Assembly: GCA_020073085.1 (NCBI GenBank)
Contig: JAIQFV010000011.1
Coordinates: 1-64,000, forward strand
Source: Terriglobia bacterium
Lineage (GTDB): Bacteria; Acidobacteriota; Terriglobia; JAIQFV01
Reading direction: 5' to 3'
DNA: 64,000 bases
Within the stretch, counting starts at the first letter, position 1, and every line of letters starts with the position of its first letter. Below the pieces are notes generated by a model, which saw nothing but the letters and a program-made list of their open reading frames with translations, did no database searches and was not told the origin of the DNA. Shown piece after piece: positions 3,324-39,500 of the stretch. A program made the translations under genes and the position numbers.

Positions 3324-4003
3324 AGATCCGGACAATCGGACAATTGAAGAGAGCCCGCTTCAGATCGAATGAACCGTGCCCAGAACAACTCTGCAATCTT
3401 CAATCAGGGAGGCAGGATAGGCTCTCGAGTGTTTCGAGGTAGGGGGGAAATTCATCATTCAAAACTCTCTTGGAATTGTTGGTGCAGAACGGATCAAGAG
3501 ATGGATGGCGAAACGCGACAATTTGACCTCAAAATTCAAGCAACGTCGCAATTGTCCGGTTGTCCGGAGGTGACCCGAAACTGTGTTTCGAAGGCGACAC
3601 CTACCGGCTGCATGAGATAAGAAGGGATCCTAAGTGAGGGTCTCTGAGGTATTGCATCACGATACATCAAATCATCATCGCCTTGGCAGCGGTTAGGTTT
3701 CTGGGGTCAGGTCCGGATTTTTGTACCCCCTGTCCCGCCGATGGGCGAGATCATTCTCTATCAGACCGAGGAATCAAGCCCAGTGAACCGGGCTAAGACT
3801 TTTGTTTTATTCGGGGGGGTAGAGCGCCTGCCCCGCCGGTAAACCAGCGGGCTGTACAAAGCCAAGCCCCATGGAACGGGGCAAAATGCGCTGGGGGCTC
3901 AATTTCCAATCCTGGTGCTTTGGACAATCGAGAATGCTCTGCCGCCCCTGGCGGGGCCTGGTTCATTTTTTATTCTTTGTACCCACGGCTCTCGCCGTGG
4001 GCT
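3324..4003. repeat. 680-bp composite repeat, copy 1 (contains MITE-like copy B)
   Basis: The first 248 bp (to 3571) are a MITE-like element with inverted ends. Another roughly 430 bp follow that are nearly identical to 15100-15535: a segment containing GCATCACGATACATCAAATC, the twin hairpin (3831-3886) and a terminal CCCACGGCTCTCGCCGTGGG hairpin. No gene is supported in 3290-4221. Confidence 0.8.
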
Positions 4004-7313: not shown

Positions 7314-7553
7314 TCCGGACAACCGGACAATTGAAGAGAGCACGCTTCAGATCGAATGAACCTTGCCCAGAACAACTCTGCAATCTTCAATCAGGGACGC
7401 AGGATAGGCTCTCGAGTGTTACGAGGTAGGAGGGAATTCATCATTCAATGCGATCTTGGAATTGTTGATGCAGAACGGATCAAGAGATGGATGGCTCAAC
7501 GCGAACTGTGACTTCAAAATTTGAGCAACATCGCAATTTGTCCGGTTGTCCAG
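7314..7553. mobile_element. MITE-like element, copy C
   Basis: This roughly 240-bp copy of the inverted-repeat element begins TCCGGACAACCGGACAATTG and ends CAATTTGTCCGGTTGTCC. It lacks the outer GATC bases and has small internal deletions relative to copy A. It lies just before the higBA promoter. Confidence 0.7.
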
Positions 7554-16611: not shown

Positions 16612-16709
16612 AACTGGCAACTAAGAACCGGCAACTGACAACTGACAACTGAGAACTGAGAACTGAGAACTGAGAACCGGCAACTGACAACTGAGAACTG
16701 GCAACTGAA
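16612..16709. repeat. Solo heptad tandem array (AACTGAG/AACTGAC type)
   Basis: Fourteen consecutive 7-nt units, mostly AACTGAG, AACTGAC, AACTGGC and AACCGGC, fill the space between a hypothetical gene and the transglycosylase start. It has the same 7-nt period as the arrays flanking the four-helix-bundle genes, but there is no inverted partner and no such gene here. It may be the leftover of an excised or decayed element. Confidence 0.85.
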
Positions 16710-16721
16710 AACTGCTCGCCC

Positions 16722-25464: not shown

Positions 25465-26072
25465 AAGACCCCAGACCCAAGACGCAAGACCCAAAACGCA
25501 AGACCCAAAACGCGAAGATTGGGACAATTCAATTGAATAACAGTATACAAACATAAGCACGCCCCTCAGCTCAGAGCACCAATCGCTTCACAGGTAATCC
25601 GGACTCTTTATGGCTGTCGTCGACTCACTGTGGACGGCCCGCATTAATTCATTGAGTACTGATGCAGCCTCCTTGCGCCCCTCATCGATCTTGTTGTAGT
25701 CGGACACCGACAGGTAGCTCAACCTCTTTGATAGGTGAAAAAAGTATTCGGCCCCAGCAAGGGAGCCACGTGCCATGCTGAGGAAATGAAGATATTCTTT
25801 CTGAGTGGATCGATTTGCGCCTTCTGCAATATTTGCCGCCACGGAACTGGTGGCTCCGCGGAGTTGTGAAATCAGACCGTACATTTCGTCATGAGGAAAT
25901 TGTGTGGTCATTGAATAGGTCATTACCGTGAGTTCATCGGCTAATTGCCAGGCCTTTATTTTTCTAAAATCTCTCGACATCGTCCGCCCCTATCCGACCT
26001 TTAGGTCCTGTGCCTAAGGTCTTTGGTCACGATTCATGGGTCTTGCGTCTTGTGACTTGTGTCTTGCGTCTG
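25465..26072 (-). mobile_element. IVS-like element 1: inverted heptad arrays around a four-helix-bundle gene
   Basis: The left array (25465-25513) has seven 7-nt units on the plus strand: AAGACCC, CAGACCC, AAGACGC, AAGACCC, AAAACGC, AAGACCC, AAAACGC. The right array (26038-26072) has five units of the same family in inverse orientation (GGGTCTT, GCGTCTT, GTGACTT, GTGTCTT, GCGTCTG), with weaker units continuing inward. The enclosed gene is on the operon strand. In RNA the arrays would pair into an imperfect stem. The element fills the cusB/cusA junction. Confidence 0.7.
25588..25980 (-). CDS. Four-helix-bundle protein (S23/IVP type), element 1
   Basis: This 130-residue all-helical protein of the S23/TIGR02436 family has FRKIKAWQLADELTVMTYSM, FPHDEMYGLISQLRGATSSV, AANIAEGANRSTQKEYLHFL and SMARGSLAGAEYFFHLS. 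The conserved core SVxANIxEG and the Q-x-R-x2-x-S segment mark the family, first known from proteins encoded in 23S rRNA intervening sequences and related to Avd of diversity-generating retroelements. Biochemical function is not established; nucleic-acid binding is suspected. It is unrelated to metal transport and sits between cusB and cusA within inverted heptad arrays. Confidence 0.88.
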   Translation of the reverse strand: MSRDFRKIKAWQLADELTVMTYSMTTQFPHDEMYGLISQLRGATSSVAANIAEGANRSTQKEYLHFLSMARGSLAGAEYFFHLSKRLSYLSVSDYNKIDEGRKEAASVLNELMRAVHSESTTAIKSPDYL

Positions 26073-31809: not shown

Positions 31810-32898
31810 TCAACAAATCCTCGGCAGCTGCTCTCCGCTCAACATGTCAATAATGCGAATCGCGCCAATCTTGCTTTGCATGGTGACCAGGCCCGGATGG
31901 GAACGCTCGCTCACCCCAGCCACCTTGCCGATGGCGCAGGCTCCGGTGCCGAGAGGATGGGCGCGAAGAAGGGCCAGCGCTCGGTCGGCATCCGCGGGCG
32001 CAATGAAGGCAACGAATCTTCCTTCATTGGCGACATAGAGGGGATCGAAGCCGAGGATCTCGCAGGCCCCCTGCACGTCTTCGCGGACGGGGATGGCATT
32101 CTCTTCGATCTGGATGTCGAGACGGGCGGCCTCTGAGATTTCTACCAGGGCGGTGGCAAGACCGCCGCGCGTCAAATCCCGCAGGCAGCGCACCTCGATT
32201 CCGGCCTCAAGAAGCGCTAGAATCAGGCTGGCGAGCGGAGCACAATCGCTTTCGATCGTCGACTCAAATTCGAGTCCTTCCCGGACCGCCATGATCGCAA
32301 TCCCATGTCGACCGATGTCCCCGCTGAGGAGAAGCACATCTCCGGGCTGAACACTGGCCGGGTTGATCCCCAGTTCGTGTTCAACTATTCCGATCCCGGC
32401 TGTGTTGATAAAAATGCCATCGCCTTTGCCTCGATCGACCACCTTCGTGTCCCCCGTTACCACTTGAACCCCGGCGGCATCGGCTGCTTGGCGCATTGAC
32501 TGGACGACCCGCCAGAGTGTCTCCATGGGGAGCCCCTCTTCAAGGATGAACCCCGCACTGAGATACAACGGACGGGCGCCACACATGGCAAGATCATTGA
32601 CGGTGCCATTGACGGCGAGCGTCGCAATGTCGCCGCCGGGAAAGAAAAGGGGATGCACGACGTAAGAATCGGTCGTAAAGGCCAGGCGCAAAGGTCTCTG
32701 TTCGTTCTTGCCCAACAAGTTGATGACAGCCCCATCATGGCGCGTTTCCAGAAGGGGATTCGCGAAGGCGGCGACAAACATTTTTTCGATCAGTTGGTGC
32801 ATCAATTTTCCGCCGCCCCCATGCGCCAGAAGCACCGTGGGGTAGTCGGAAAGGGGGATGGGACAGGAGAGTGCGAAGGAATGATCGTCAGAGTTCAT
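31810..32898 (-). CDS. hypE: Hydrogenase maturation factor HypE
   Basis: This 362-residue protein of the PurM/AIR synthase-like fold uses ATP to dehydrate the carbamoylated C-terminal cysteine to a thiocyanate, the source of the CN ligands of the NiFe site. The required C-terminal motif is present (GEQLPRIC, ending in Cys). Other family parts are [38 protein letters not shown] and [16 protein letters not shown]. The ATG at 32898 is used; the open frame upstream runs through a heptad array ([13 protein letters not shown]) and is not real coding. It is last in the hyp run. Confidence 0.94.
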
Positions 32899-32908
32899 AT
32901 CTTGTGAT

Positions 32909-33586
32909 CCAGAAGCCAGAGGCCGGAGGCCAGAAGCCAGAGGCCGGAAGCCAGAGGCCGGAGGCCGGAAGATGGAAGCCAGAGGCCAAAAAAGGAGAAC
33001 CAATCTGAAATGAGTTCTTATTCATGTGGCCCTTCCTCAAAAGACTTCCAGTGCTCATAAAGTCGATTCAGTTTTTTGCTTAAGTCTTCGAGCTGATCCT
33101 TCATTGACGTATGGTCTTCCTGGCTGATGTACCTGCATTCATAAGCAAAATCAATCCAGAGCTTGGTCTCGTCACAGGATCCGATCGCATCGAGAAGATG
33201 ACGCTTAAAAACGCTTTCATAATGTCTCTTTGCCCAACCTTCCACAATGTTCGCGGTTACGGAACGTGAAGACCTGCGAACCTGATCGGTCAGCGAGTAG
33301 AGTTCTTCCTTTGGAAATTGTTTAGTTGCCTTGAAAACGCGCATTGCGATCGCATAGGAAAGCTCATAGACTTTGAGATCTTTATATGACCTTATCACCC
33401 CTTCCACTCTTTCCCACCCTGGTGAGAATTCTAACTTGGTTTGTGATTTCTGGCTTCTGGTTTCCGGCTTCTGACTTCTATCTTCTGGCTTCCGGTTTCT
33501 GGCTTCTGGTCTCCGGCTTCCGGCTTCTGGTTTCCGGCTTCTGGTTTCTGGTCTCCGGCCTCTGGCTTCCGGCTTCCGGCTTCCGG
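32909..33586 (-). mobile_element. IVS-like element 2: inverted heptad arrays around a four-helix-bundle gene
   Basis: The left array (32909-32985) has eleven 7-nt units of the type CC(A/G)GA(A/G)G. The right array (33447-33586) has about twenty units of the inverse type (C/T)(T/C)TC(T/C)GG, such as CTTCTGG and CTTCCGG. The arrays are complementary over tens of bases. The right end stops eight bases from the hypD stop codon and the left end is 11 bases from the hypE start. The element exactly fills the hypD/hypE junction. Confidence 0.75.
33018..33398 (-). CDS. Four-helix-bundle protein (S23/IVP type), element 2
   Basis: This 126-residue S23-family protein starts at GTG (33398) with GGAAGGG upstream: [20 protein letters not shown], then [40 protein letters not shown] and [20 protein letters not shown]. 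The core SVTANIVEG and E-x-Y-x-L-x2-QVRRSS are family hallmarks. It is only distantly similar to the copies at 25588 and 36057. It is on the operon strand between hypD and hypE but has no known part in hydrogenase maturation. The frame is open to 33953 through the array and hypD; that part is not coding. Confidence 0.88.
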
Positions 33587-33594
33587 CTTCGTTC

Positions 33595-34713
33595 TCAGTC
33601 CCTGCACGACAGCCGGCGATATCGATAATACGCCGCGCAGGCGCCCTCTGAAGAGACCATGGGGGCTCCCAGGGGGCGTTCCGGCGTGCAATGGGCCCCA
33701 AAGGCCAGGCATTCGTGAGGTTTTCTGATGCCCTGCAAAACGAGACCGGCAATACATTCAGAAGATTCTTCCGTCGTGTGCTGGGCGACCCCAAAGCGAA
33801 GCTCGGCGTCATACTCGGCGTATTTTTCCTGGAGGCCCAGGCCGCTCTGGGGGATTTCACCGACGCCGCGCCACTTGCGAGGGATGACCCGAAACACCTC
33901 GTGAATAATTTGTTGCGCCGCCTGATTGCCCGCGCGGCGAACCGACCGCGCATACTGGTTTTCCACTGAGGCCCGCCCCTCCTCCAGCTGCTTCACGCAG
34001 AGATAAATCCCCTGCAGAATATCCACAGGCTCAAAGCCCGTCACCACGATCGGGACATGGTACTTCTCGGCAATGGGTTCGTATTCGGTATACCCCATCA
34101 CCGTACAGACATGTCCGGCCGCCAGAAACCCCTGCACGCGATTTTCCGGAGAAGACAGGATGGCCTCCATCGCCGGTGGAACCAGGACGTGTGAAACAAG
34201 GAGTGAGAAGTTCGAGAGGCCCTGCTGGGACGCCTGGAAGACGGCCATGGCATTCGCAGGGGCTGTGGTTTCGAACCCTACCGCAAAGAATACGACCTGC
34301 CTTGTGGGATTCCTGCGGGCAATCTGGACAGCATCCAGCGGCGAGTAGACGATTCGGACATCGCCTCCGTGGGCTTTGACGGAGAGAAGATCCATGGGAG
34401 TTTCGTGGCCCTCCCCCACATGGGCCGGAACTCGCAACATGTCTCCGAAAGAGCAAAAGATCACTTCCGGCCGGGAGGCGATCTCGATTGCTTTTTCGAT
34501 GAGCTCGATCGGGGTGACACAGACCGGGCATCCGGGTCCATGCACGAGCGTGATTTCTTTCGGGAGCAATTCATCCACGCCGAATTTCACGATGGAATGG
34601 GTCTGCCCCCCGCAGACCTCCATCAATGTCCATGGTTTTGTCGCGGTGCCGGCAATGGCCCTGGAGAATTGCTCCGCTGCCTTGCGATCTCGATACTCAT
34701 CAATAAATTTCAT
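33595..34713 (-). CDS. hypD: Hydrogenase maturation factor HypD
   Basis: This 372-residue Fe-S protein forms, with HypC, the scaffold on which the Fe(CN)2CO unit is built. The conserved segments are present: [53 protein letters not shown] and [13 protein letters not shown], plus a C-terminal cysteine set ([20 protein letters not shown]). Length is normal. It lies in the hyp run after the DHOD-like gene and is followed by the inserted element 2, which begins eight bases after its stop. Confidence 0.95.
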
Positions 34714-35992: not shown

Positions 35993-36572
35993 ATGTCCAA
36001 AGTCCCAAGTCCAAGGTCCAAAGTCAAAAAACCAAGACCATTTGATAACGAGAAATTTATTTGTACTTGCTTCCGCGCATGGCGGCTCCTCGAAGGTACC
36101 TTATCAGGCCAGCGAGCATTTTGCTTACTTCCTCTGACTTCAATCGTGTTTCTGCGAATTGCTCCTCACTGACGTACTGTTGATCTAGCGCAATGTACAG
36201 TTGGGATCTCAGCTCTCCACAGGATCCTTTTGCGAGGGCGAGAAACTGTTGAAACTCTTTGTCGCCCGATCGCTCAAAACCCTCTGCAATATTTGACAGG
36301 ATTGAGACAGAGGCGCGTCGCATTTGATCGCGAAGGCAAAAATCCCGACCAAACTTCGCATTGGAAGTTATCCTGTATGTATCCTTTGCCAATTCCCGGG
36401 CCACCCTCCATGCTTCGATATCCTCAAACCGTTCTATTCTTGCCATTCACCCTGCCCCTATGAAAGTTACGACACACGCGCCAAAGTTTAACCTTCGGAC
36501 CTCGGTTTTGGACTTGGGACCTTGGACTTGGGACTTTGGACTTGGGACTTTGGACTTGGGACTCTAGACTTT
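35993..36572 (-). mobile_element. IVS-like element 3: inverted heptad arrays around a four-helix-bundle gene
   Basis: The left array (35993-36034) contains units ATGTCCA, AAGTCCC, AAGTCCA, AGGTCCA, AAGTCAA, AAAACCA. The right array (36496-36572) contains GGACTTG, GGACCTT, GGACTTT and similar units, about eleven in all. GTCCAAAGTCCCAAGTCCAA on the left is the exact reverse complement of TTGGACTTGGGACTTTGGAC on the right. The right array overlaps the nifJ stop codon; the left ends 22 bases before the DHOD-like start. Confidence 0.75.
36057..36446 (-). CDS. Four-helix-bundle protein (S23/IVP type), element 3
   Basis: This 129-residue S23-family protein has FEDIEAWRVARELAKDTYRI, FCLRDQMRRASVSILSNIAE, GFERSGDKEFQQFLALAKGS and CGELRSQLYIALDQQYVSEE. 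The core RRASVSxxSNIAEGFER is the most canonical of the three copies. It is on the operon strand between nifJ and the DHOD-like gene. Function is unknown. Sequence divergence from the other two suggests independent arrivals rather than local copying. Confidence 0.9.
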   Translation of the reverse strand: MARIERFEDIEAWRVARELAKDTYRITSNAKFGRDFCLRDQMRRASVSILSNIAEGFERSGDKEFQQFLALAKGSCGELRSQLYIALDQQYVSEEQFAETRLKSEEVSKMLAGLIRYLRGAAMRGSKYK

Positions 36573-39500
36573 ATTCTCTCCCTTCCTCGCCGCCATGTAC
36601 TCATACAAGCGCCAGCGGGTTTGGACGTCTTCCTGGGCCCGCTTGAGCAGGCGGTTGGCTTCCTCCGGTTTTATCTTGGTCAACATCTTGAACCGGTTTT
36701 CCATGTAAAGATAATCCTGCAAGGGAATCTTGGGAGGCCGGGAGTCCAGGGTCATCGGGTTTTCGCCTTGTTTGGCACGATCGGGGTGATAGCGATACAA
36801 CAACCACTGTCCGGAATCGACCGCGGCCTTCTGGTCATGCATGGCCGTCGTCATGTTGATGCCGTGGGCGATGCAGTGGCTGTAGGCGATAATCAACGAG
36901 GGGCCGTCGTATGCCTCAGCCTCCAGAAACGCACGCAGCGTGTGTTCATCCTTGGCGCCCATGGCTACACTGGCGACATAAACGCTCCCATAGGTCATCG
37001 CAATCAGCCCGAGGTCCTTCTTGGCGACCGGCTTTCCGCCGGCGGCAAACTTGGCCACGGCCGCCCGCGGAGTGGATTTGGACATTTGTCCGCCGGTATT
37101 GGAATACACCTCGGTGTCGAGCACGAGAATGTTGACGTTTCGACCGCTGGCGAAGACATGGTCCAGCCCGCCAAATCCGATGTCATACGCCCATCCATCG
37201 CCTCCCACAATCCACACGCTCTTCCGGACGAGCAGGTCGGCCAGCGACAACAACCGCCGGGCCTCGTCCGACTCGAGACGCTCGAGTTTTTGCTTCAGAA
37301 GCGCCACCCGACCCCGCTGTTCGTAGATATCCGCTTCATCTTTTTGAGTAGCCGTCAGGATGGAGGTCGCGAGGTCTTCGCCAACTTCACTCGCCAGTCT
37401 CTTCAGCAACTCGGAGGCGAATTCTTTCTGCTTGTCGAGGGAGACCCGGAAACCAAGGCCGAACTCAGCATTGTCTTCAAACAGGGAATTCGACCAGGCA
37501 GGACCGCGGCCCTCCGCATTCTTGGTCCAGGGAGTCGTGGGGAGGTTTCCGCCATAGATGGAGGAACACCCCGTGGCGTTGGCCACCAGGGCGCGGTCTC
37601 CAAACAGCTGCGTCAACAATTTAAGGTAAGGCGTCTCCCCGCAACCGGCACAGGCGCTCGAGAACTCAAACAGGGGCTCCTGGACCTGCTGCTGCCGGAT
37701 GCTCGATACCTTGATCTGGCGCCGGTCGACTTCCGGAATGGTCAAGAAAAATTCCCAGTTCTCCCGTTCGGGTAGCCGCAGAGGGGGCTGGGGAGCCATG
37801 TTGATGGCCTTGAGCCGAGTCTCCGATTTGTTCTTGGCCGGGCATACATCCACGCAGATGGCGCATCCGGTGCAATCTTCCGGAGCGACCTGGATGGTGT
37901 ATTTCAGTTCTTTCCATTCGCGGTCCCCGGCGTTGAAAGACTTGAAGGTCGGCGGGGCGGTTTCAAGGATCTTCGGATCGTAGACTTTGATGCGAATGAC
38001 ACTGTGCGGACAGACCATCGCGCACTTGCCGCATTGAATGCACACGGCGGGATCCCAAACGGGGATTTCGAGCGCGATGTTCCGCTTCTCCCATTTTGAA
38101 GTTCCCGTGGGGTACGTCCCATCGGCGGGAAGAGCGCTGACGGGCAGATCATCTCCATGACCGGCAATCATCTCTCCCAGGACTTGTTGGACAAATTCCG
38201 GCGCTTCATGGGACACGGGAGGCGGCAGCTCGATCGCGCCCTCGGTCTGGAGGGGAACCTTGACCTCGAACAAGTGAGCCAGGGTGCGGTCGACGGCCCT
38301 GAGGTTCATCTGGACAATCTCTTCGCCTTTCTTGCCGTAAGTTTTCTGGATGGCTTCCATGATGGCGGTGATGGCTTCGTCCCGGGGAAGGACCTTTGAA
38401 ATGGCGAAGAAACACACCTGCATGACGGTATTGATCCGGCCGCCCATTCCGCTTTCATGGGCCACCTTGACGGCATCAATCACGTAGAACTTCAAGTTCT
38501 TCCGGATGATCTGTTCCTGCGCAGCGCGGGGAAGCTCCCTCCAAACGTCTTCGGGCCCATAAGGGGTGTTTAATAGGAAGGTTCCGCCCTCGACGAGGTG
38601 CTTGAGCATGTCGTAGCGTTCGAGGAAAACCGGTTGATGACAACCGACAAAGTTGGCCCGGGTCACGAGGTAGGTCGAGCGGATCGGTTTGGGGCCGAAG
38701 CGGAGGTGGGACACCGTCACGGCTCCGGCCTTCTTGGAGTCATACACAAAATAACCCTGGGCGTAATTCTCCGTATTTTCGCCGATGATCTTGATGGAGT
38801 TTTTATTAGCTCCTACCGTGCCGTCAGATCCAAGACCATAGAAGAGGGCGCGGACCACCTCGTCCGGCTCGATGGAGAAGTCGGGATCAAAAGGAAGGCT
38901 CGTATGCGAAAGATCGTCCTGAATGCCGATGGTGAAGTGGTTCTTGGGTTGGGCCTGCGCCAGATTATCGAACACCGCTTTGACCATCGCAGGTGTGAAT
39001 TCCTTGGAAGACAAGCCGTAGCGGCCGCCCACAATTTTCGGGAACGTCTTCAGGCGACCGAACCCCTCGGAGATCCCCTCATGGAGGGCATTGACGCCAT
39101 CCAGGTAGAGGGGTTCGCCGATGCTGCCCGGCTCCTTCGTCCGGTCGAGCACGGCGAGGCGCGCGGTGGTGGCGGGCAATGATTCGATGAAGCGCTTCAG
39201 ATCAAAGGGCCGGTACAGCCGGACCTTGAGGACACCGACATTCTCTCCGTGAGAATTGAGATAGTCCACGGTCTCATGCACCGCCTCGGCGCCGGAACCC
39301 ATCAACACAATGACCCGGTCTGCGTTCGCTGACCCGTGATACTCGTAGAGACGATAGGCGCGTCCCACGATCTCCGCAAAATGGTCCATGGCCTGTTGGA
39401 CGATTTCGGGACACGCGGTGTAATAGGGATTGACGGTCTCGCGGGCTTGAAAATAGACGTCCGGATTTTGAGCGGTGCCCCGCATGACCGGATGGTCCGG

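Follow-up and report, generated by a model that had tools for sequence, protein, structure and literature searches.

An IVP gene between inverted heptamer arrays at a hypD/hypE junction, a probable copy of a dispersed element

Two long arrays of complementary 7-bp units lie between hypD and hypE in the window (the whole 64,000-nucleotide stretch of Terriglobia DNA analysed here). An earlier note, made from the same DNA, read them as arms of unequal length selected for their capacity to pair. The arrays are present as it described, with 11 units on the left and 20–22 on the right (20 in frame, with the start at 33437/33448 and the end at 33590, and about 22 by run length) and with Tandem Repeats Finder scores of 76–162, and chance is excluded by the period counts and the shuffle given below. 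The spacer between them is not bare and holds an overlooked 126-aa IVP gene (Table 1).

Table 1. Coordinates of the hypD/hypE element, the other IVP elements and the lone array in the window.
Feature	Position	Strand	Description
Lone gene-less array	16612..16714	+	AACTGAC units; unit family as IVP element G000:C11:110437
Second IVP element, left arm	25466..25516	+	AAGACCC units
Second IVP element, IVP gene	25588..25980	-	130 aa; PF05635 E=1.6e-28
Second IVP element, right arm	26027..26071	+	GTCTTGC units
hypE	31810..32899	-	AIRS domains; likely ATG 32897-32899, 9 bases from left arm
hypD/hypE element, left arm	32909..32988	+	11 tandem 7-bp GAAGCCR units, AG polarity inward
hypD/hypE element, IVP gene (23S_rRNA_IVP, four-helix-bundle protein)	33018..33398	-	126 aa, GTG start; PF05635 E=3.9e-32, TIGR02436 E=7.4e-30
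hypD/hypE element, right arm	33437..33590	+	20-22 tandem 7-bp units, reverse complement of left-arm unit
hypD	33595..34713	-	PF01924 E=6e-153; TGA stop 4 bases from right arm
Third IVP element, left arm	35995..36029	+	GTCCAAA units
Third IVP element, IVP gene	36057..36446	-	129 aa; PF05635 E=5.2e-36
Third IVP element, right arm	36507..36573	+	TTTGGAC units

The IVP gene and its relatives in the window genome

The product of the hypD/hypE IVP gene passes the curated cut-offs of both families to which it was compared (111.1 bits against 33.8 for Pfam PF05635 and 103.4 against 24 for NCBIfam TIGR02436), and the closest solved structures are Xcc0516 of Xanthomonas campestris (PDB 2gsc, the best sequence match) and 2rld. 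We know of no catalytic domain for IVP. In profile searches of the window elements, PF05635 was the only match enclosed by the arms, with no transposase domain and no Y1 tyrosine transposase, and no match to IVP was found among the phages of INPHARED at the sensitivity used. Matches to Avd, the accessory protein of DGRs (PF22296 with an E-value of about 1e-4, below the curated cut-off, and NF033474 with E=8e-6), suggest weakly that IVP is a distant relative of that protein, and IVP has been treated as an Avd relative (PMC10053308). At the hypD/hypE locus itself the neighbours are hypD and hypE, with no adjacent reverse transcriptase and no TR/VR. In three measurable ortholog pairs between the window genome and a sister species, dN/dS ranged from 0.06 to 0.13 and, judging by these ratios, IVP is under purifying selection where dS can be measured. 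The exception is the pair L008/L020 (dN/dS 0.72), whose dS of 0.048 is far below that of the other pairs and for which recent transfer and relaxed selection are possible readings.

The window genome contains 13 PF05635 matches, about nine of them with inverted arrays that each have their own unit, one of period 9 rather than 7. The hypD/hypE feature is probably one copy of a dispersed element, in which an IVP gene lies between inverted arrays of 7-bp units.

Other repeats are also present in the window. The AACTGAC array (Table 1) has neither a partner nor an IVP gene, and occupies the same site in the sister species with 8 units against 12 here. Two pairs of CCGGACAA / TTGTCCGG doublets, spaced by about 224 bp, lie at 1824–2063 and 3329–3567; single copies of doublets of this type lie at 7315 and 14860, and together they look like another small inverted-repeat family.

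Pairing and turnover of the arms

Unit variants were described in the earlier note as limited to A/G (or T/C) at two positions. Their transitional character is borne out by 32 of the 34 deviations from GAAGCCA in the hypD/hypE units, but the restriction to two positions is not: position 4 also varies (G/A, in 6 of 20 right-arm units), and besides this G/A variation C>A occurs twice and C>T three times. The further statement that every unit is able to pair with most of those in the opposite arm does not hold on the strand from which hypD, IVP and hypE are read: full pairing, with G-U allowed, is reached by only 26% of unit pairs there, against 54% on the opposite strand. That unit number is free to change was correct, with 8 and 27 units at the hypD/hypE site in the sister species and 22/45 against 5/9 units between the sister species at another site.

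The broader idea, that the arms are selected to base-pair as RNA in a G-U-tolerant stem between hypD and hypE that is cut by RNase III like the 23S IVS, draws on several observations. The sense RNA has a better fold than its shuffles (z = -5.95), the two genes on either side of the element are read in the same direction, IVP has co-directional neighbours on both sides in 91 of 150 loci, and RNase III is known to cleave the stems of 23S IVS (PMC4990558). However, a good fold is expected of any inverted repeat, whatever its purpose, no match to 23S rRNA was obtained in any IVP locus checked, and three tests of selection for G-U-tolerant pairing gave no support. On the IVP strand of 77 elements, G-U combinations were not in excess over A-C (0.050 vs 0.062; Wilcoxon p = 0.07, the difference running against the hypothesis), and wobble asymmetry was rejected on this ground as a sign of selection on RNA. 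Sense-strand pairing at hypD/hypE was no better than permuted, the proportion of fully paired unit pairs being 0.264 against 0.389 ± 0.092 when variants were dealt randomly between the arms. Complementarity at 16 syntenic sites was 0.649 within species and 0.630 across species (p = 0.12), in a comparison whose power is limited by the few sites and by array phase shifts, and concerted evolution of the arms was rejected as not significant. Together these null results come close to refuting the pairing claim while leaving the free unit number standing, and we regard selection of the arms as an RNA stem as unlikely.

Comparison with the sister species gives a picture of stable sites with changing contents. 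Eight array-flanked IVP elements of the window genome have the same location in the sister species, and the sharing of most sites indicates that the elements are stable and not visibly active. One site is near-empty in the sister species, where it retains a single 9-mer unit; beyond this, the comparison revealed no clean empty site and no clean target-site duplication. The hypD-hypE junction of another genome (G002) was considered as an empty site and rejected, as the sequence there, some 300 bp long and with a short palindrome rich in G, is a different one and not an IVP element. At the hypD/hypE site itself, position 5 of the unit has changed from C to T in both arms. Elsewhere both arms carry different unit families between the sister species (C9:73056 and C1:38637), and some sites have period-9 arms in one species and period-7 arms in the other; joint change of the arms at some sites is wholesale replacement, not gradual compensation.

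Such replacements also bear on another explanation, that the host keeps the arrays at operon junctions for a function in regulation or in the protection of mRNA; proposals of this sort exist for cyanobacterial STRRs and for the G-quadruplex heptamers of Xanthomonas. Arrays do border directly on stop codons and finish a short distance ahead of starts, the heptamer loci of Xanthomonas are stable between species (PMC4692102), and STRR hairpins have been reported between hupS and hupL (PMC2670836). Host sites would nevertheless hardly be expected to differ in unit family, or even in period, at one and the same place in sister species; intergenic positions may simply be where copies are tolerated, and most units here are not G-quadruplex formers. 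A host function of this kind is accordingly quite improbable as the reason for the arrays.

Arrays at IVP loci and away from them

Arrays are a recurrent feature of IVP loci. The comparison covered 176 loci for which both flanks were available. They were taken from the family of the window genome, from further genomes of its phylum (of 60 sampled, 31 have IVP) and from 80 named contigs belonging to many groups besides. A significant tandem array was found in 270 of 352 flanks (77%), most often with period 7 (181 flanks, with period 14 in 37, 8 in 24 and 9 in 8), and 109 elements have a period common to both arms. When one flank was matched to the reverse complement of its partner, the best match had a median of 22, against 11 for swapped flanks; where both arms have period 7 (96 elements), the median arm-to-arm complementarity was 0.77, against 0.45 for swaps. 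Units share a core AG(T), and the 5' arm shows AG over CT in 88 of 93 informative elements (88:5). This polarity is inward, not tied to the coding strand, because an inverted repeat is identical when read on either strand; a coding-strand polarity of units, suggested by a 69:8 count, was rejected for the same reason. IVP-like genes without flanking inverted arrays also exist (L009 and L021/L022), with two IVP domains in one 444-codon frame in the sister species, and are possibly a domesticated form.

Across phyla, unit similarity climbs with IVP identity, from about 0.46 below 40% identity to 0.74 above 70%, whereas a reverse-complement control is nearly flat (0.41–0.46), so that the arms appear to travel or co-diverge with the gene rather than being copied from the insertion site. 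Copying had been considered on account of a GAAGCCC following the hypD stop in G009, and was rejected because units go with the type of IVP from phylum to phylum. Simple co-inheritance, with no recognition involved, could account for this link.

Away from IVP genes, 832 kb of the window genome contains 65 period-7 runs, 12 period-9 runs and 58 runs at the double period of 14, against 0–1 at most other periods, and a 400-kb shuffle yielded no runs at the periods tried with the same threshold. Only periods 7 and 9 are enriched among short repeats, and most of these arrays are gene-less, largely as inverted pairs. Simple slippage, a microsatellite-like expansion with no element behind the arrays, would agree with the free variation of unit number and with the 32 of 34 variants that are transitions, but it does not predict enrichment at two periods only or arrays that track IVP, and it is already disfavoured by inverted pairs with a fixed inward polarity; we consider it scarcely credible.

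The gene-less arrays resemble the arms of the IVP elements in the same genome. Matched to their own IVP units, 62 gene-less arrays (G000) gave a mean of 0.735, above all 120 control sets from other genomes (0.637 ± 0.024, maximum 0.689), two of the IVP units (L004 and L010) having been set by hand. Period-9 gene-less pairs in the window genome co-occur with, and match, its period-9 IVP element; a few period-9 arrays in G002, where no period-9 IVP element was found, count against the explanation that we prefer. Eight IVP-free genomes of the phylum had a single period-7 array in 346 kb, against the 65 in 832 kb of the window genome (p = 5e-9). Some 55 places in the sister genome resemble the AACTGAC array of the window, and many of them are inverted pairs 60–250 bp apart, too close for an IVP gene to fit. 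In a Gallionella and in a planctomycete, the arm of an IVP element has 50–60 matches across the genome, often as inverted pairs. Terminal inverted repeats are thus common to gene-bearing and gene-less copies, as in MITEs, and IVP genes, their arms and the gene-less pairs very likely form one family. The sister genome also contains dozens of copies of a 120-bp sequence (L001:76-194, G000:C28), often as inverted pairs about 250–330 bp apart, which is unrelated to the heptamer arrays.

The composition of individual elements is less regular. Some arms are mosaic, arms mix between families, and near-identical arms of the AGGTGTC family can enclose unrelated cores. The core of one site is inverted within the same outer AGTCCAA arms (G000:C1:53119-53336 vs G001:C15:53050-53369), with a second array, of GAAGTC, nested within. 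At C1:153853 the two arms are non-complementary, which again counts against the preferred explanation. Unrelated cores and mixed arms, together with the many array pairs that have no IVP, would be understandable if host processes had spread the arrays as intergenic repeats in their own right, with IVP as a chance passenger between two arms. We doubt this, as a passenger would not be expected to predict unit sequence across phyla, to be flanked by arrays in 77% of cases or to share its units with gene-less arrays of its own genome, nor would the sampled IVP-free genomes be expected to lack period-7 arrays (1 in 346 kb).

The association extends to cyanobacteria. In 10 cyanobacterial plasmid loci, a set separate from the window's organism, 7-bp arrays lie alongside the IVP gene in 10 of 10, most as clear inverted pairs, and plasmid-borne IVP is almost confined to this group. 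One plasmid element lies between two ribonucleotide reductase genes, and the cas6-cas4 interval houses an IVP element in Anabaena 90 (L307) and Pseudanabaena (L313), which may explain the earlier listing of IVP among cas-associated genes (PMC3936711). Positions 1–50000 of Trichormus plasmid C have almost no further 7-bp arrays, which also counts against the preferred explanation. The cyanobacterial seven-letter repeats (STRRs) seem to belong to the same kind as the IVP elements.

A candidate class of mobile element and its counterparts

The explanation that we prefer is that IVP would recognise its cognate array in trans, and that this recognition would spread or maintain both gene-bearing and gene-less copies, perhaps through an RNA or single-stranded DNA hairpin by analogy with Avd and reverse transcriptase. 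Unit number would drift by slippage and recombination, recombination between arms would invert cores, and copies would survive at the least harmful sites, after the stop of one gene and before the start of the next, where transcribed copies could form a long hairpin. The complementarity of the arms would follow from the presence of one recognition array at both ends, in opposite orientations, and not from continuous selection for pairing. Further points that weigh against this explanation are the absence of a known catalytic domain in IVP, the stability of most sites between the sister species, the failure to find a clean target-site duplication, the IVP loci that have no arrays and the dN/dS of 0.72 in the pair L008/L020. 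Whether IVP acts on the arms is, from sequence comparison, an evenly balanced matter. As a tentative proposal, to which we give somewhat less than an even chance, the elements may constitute a new class of mobile element, in which an Avd-like IVP recognises an AG/AGT core in units of 7–9 bp in a type-specific manner and propagates inverted array pairs, with or without its own gene, between operon genes, the cyanobacterial STRRs, Xanthomonas GGGAATC and Beggiatoaceae TAACTGA repeats being its products.

Such a class would join several loose ends, namely IVP/S23, which is widespread and of known structure but without a function, its kinship with Avd, and heptamers of cyanobacteria, xanthomonads and sulfur bacteria that have so far been given unrelated explanations. 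It would offer a simple reason for IVP genes in odd places such as cas operons, and the purpose of 7-bp repeats would become a question of binding, of one protein to its cognate or a non-cognate array. IVP, STRRs, GGGAATC and TAACTGA are treated separately in the literature searched, which included few subscription papers and in which no paper linking IVP to dispersed heptamer arrays was found.

Among systems with known machinery, DGRs resemble the window elements through the distant relationship of IVP to Avd suggested by weak profile matches, but the array variants here are transitions of both kinds and not the outcome of adenine mutagenesis. MITEs and REP/RAYT systems likewise consist of many gene-less inverted-repeat copies and few gene-bearing relatives with the same ends, while the window elements have no transposase domain and their ends are tandem arrays of variable length. 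The 23S IVS of Leptospira and Coxiella (S23p/IVP gene) carry, as here, a PF05635 open reading frame within complementary stem-forming ends, and that of Coxiella has heptameric GACAGAT repeats before the open reading frame in strain-variable copy number (PMC4990558); the window element differs in lying between protein genes, not inside 23S rRNA, and in having tandem arrays as arms, with gene-less relatives genome-wide.

Among dispersed heptamers, cyanobacterial STRRs share with the window arrays 7-bp tandem units, a mainly intergenic position and a capacity to form hairpins (PMC2670836), but published accounts give them no known function, and no link to IVP was found in the literature searched. 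The TAACTGA repeats of marine Beggiatoaceae, which are intergenic and change by insertions and deletions in 7-nt steps (PMC4679880), resemble the AACTGAC array of the window, although they are mostly direct repeats before start codons and have been proposed as translation signals. The GGGAATC repeats of Xanthomonas form about 70 convergent inverted pairs per genome with variable unit number, on the sense strand after stops and the antisense strand before starts (PMC4692102). These and the GGGGA(C/T)T repeats of Nostoc have been explained as G-quadruplexes, which most units of the window genome would not form, but their units are of 7 bp as here, and X. campestris has an IVP protein of its own, Xcc0516.
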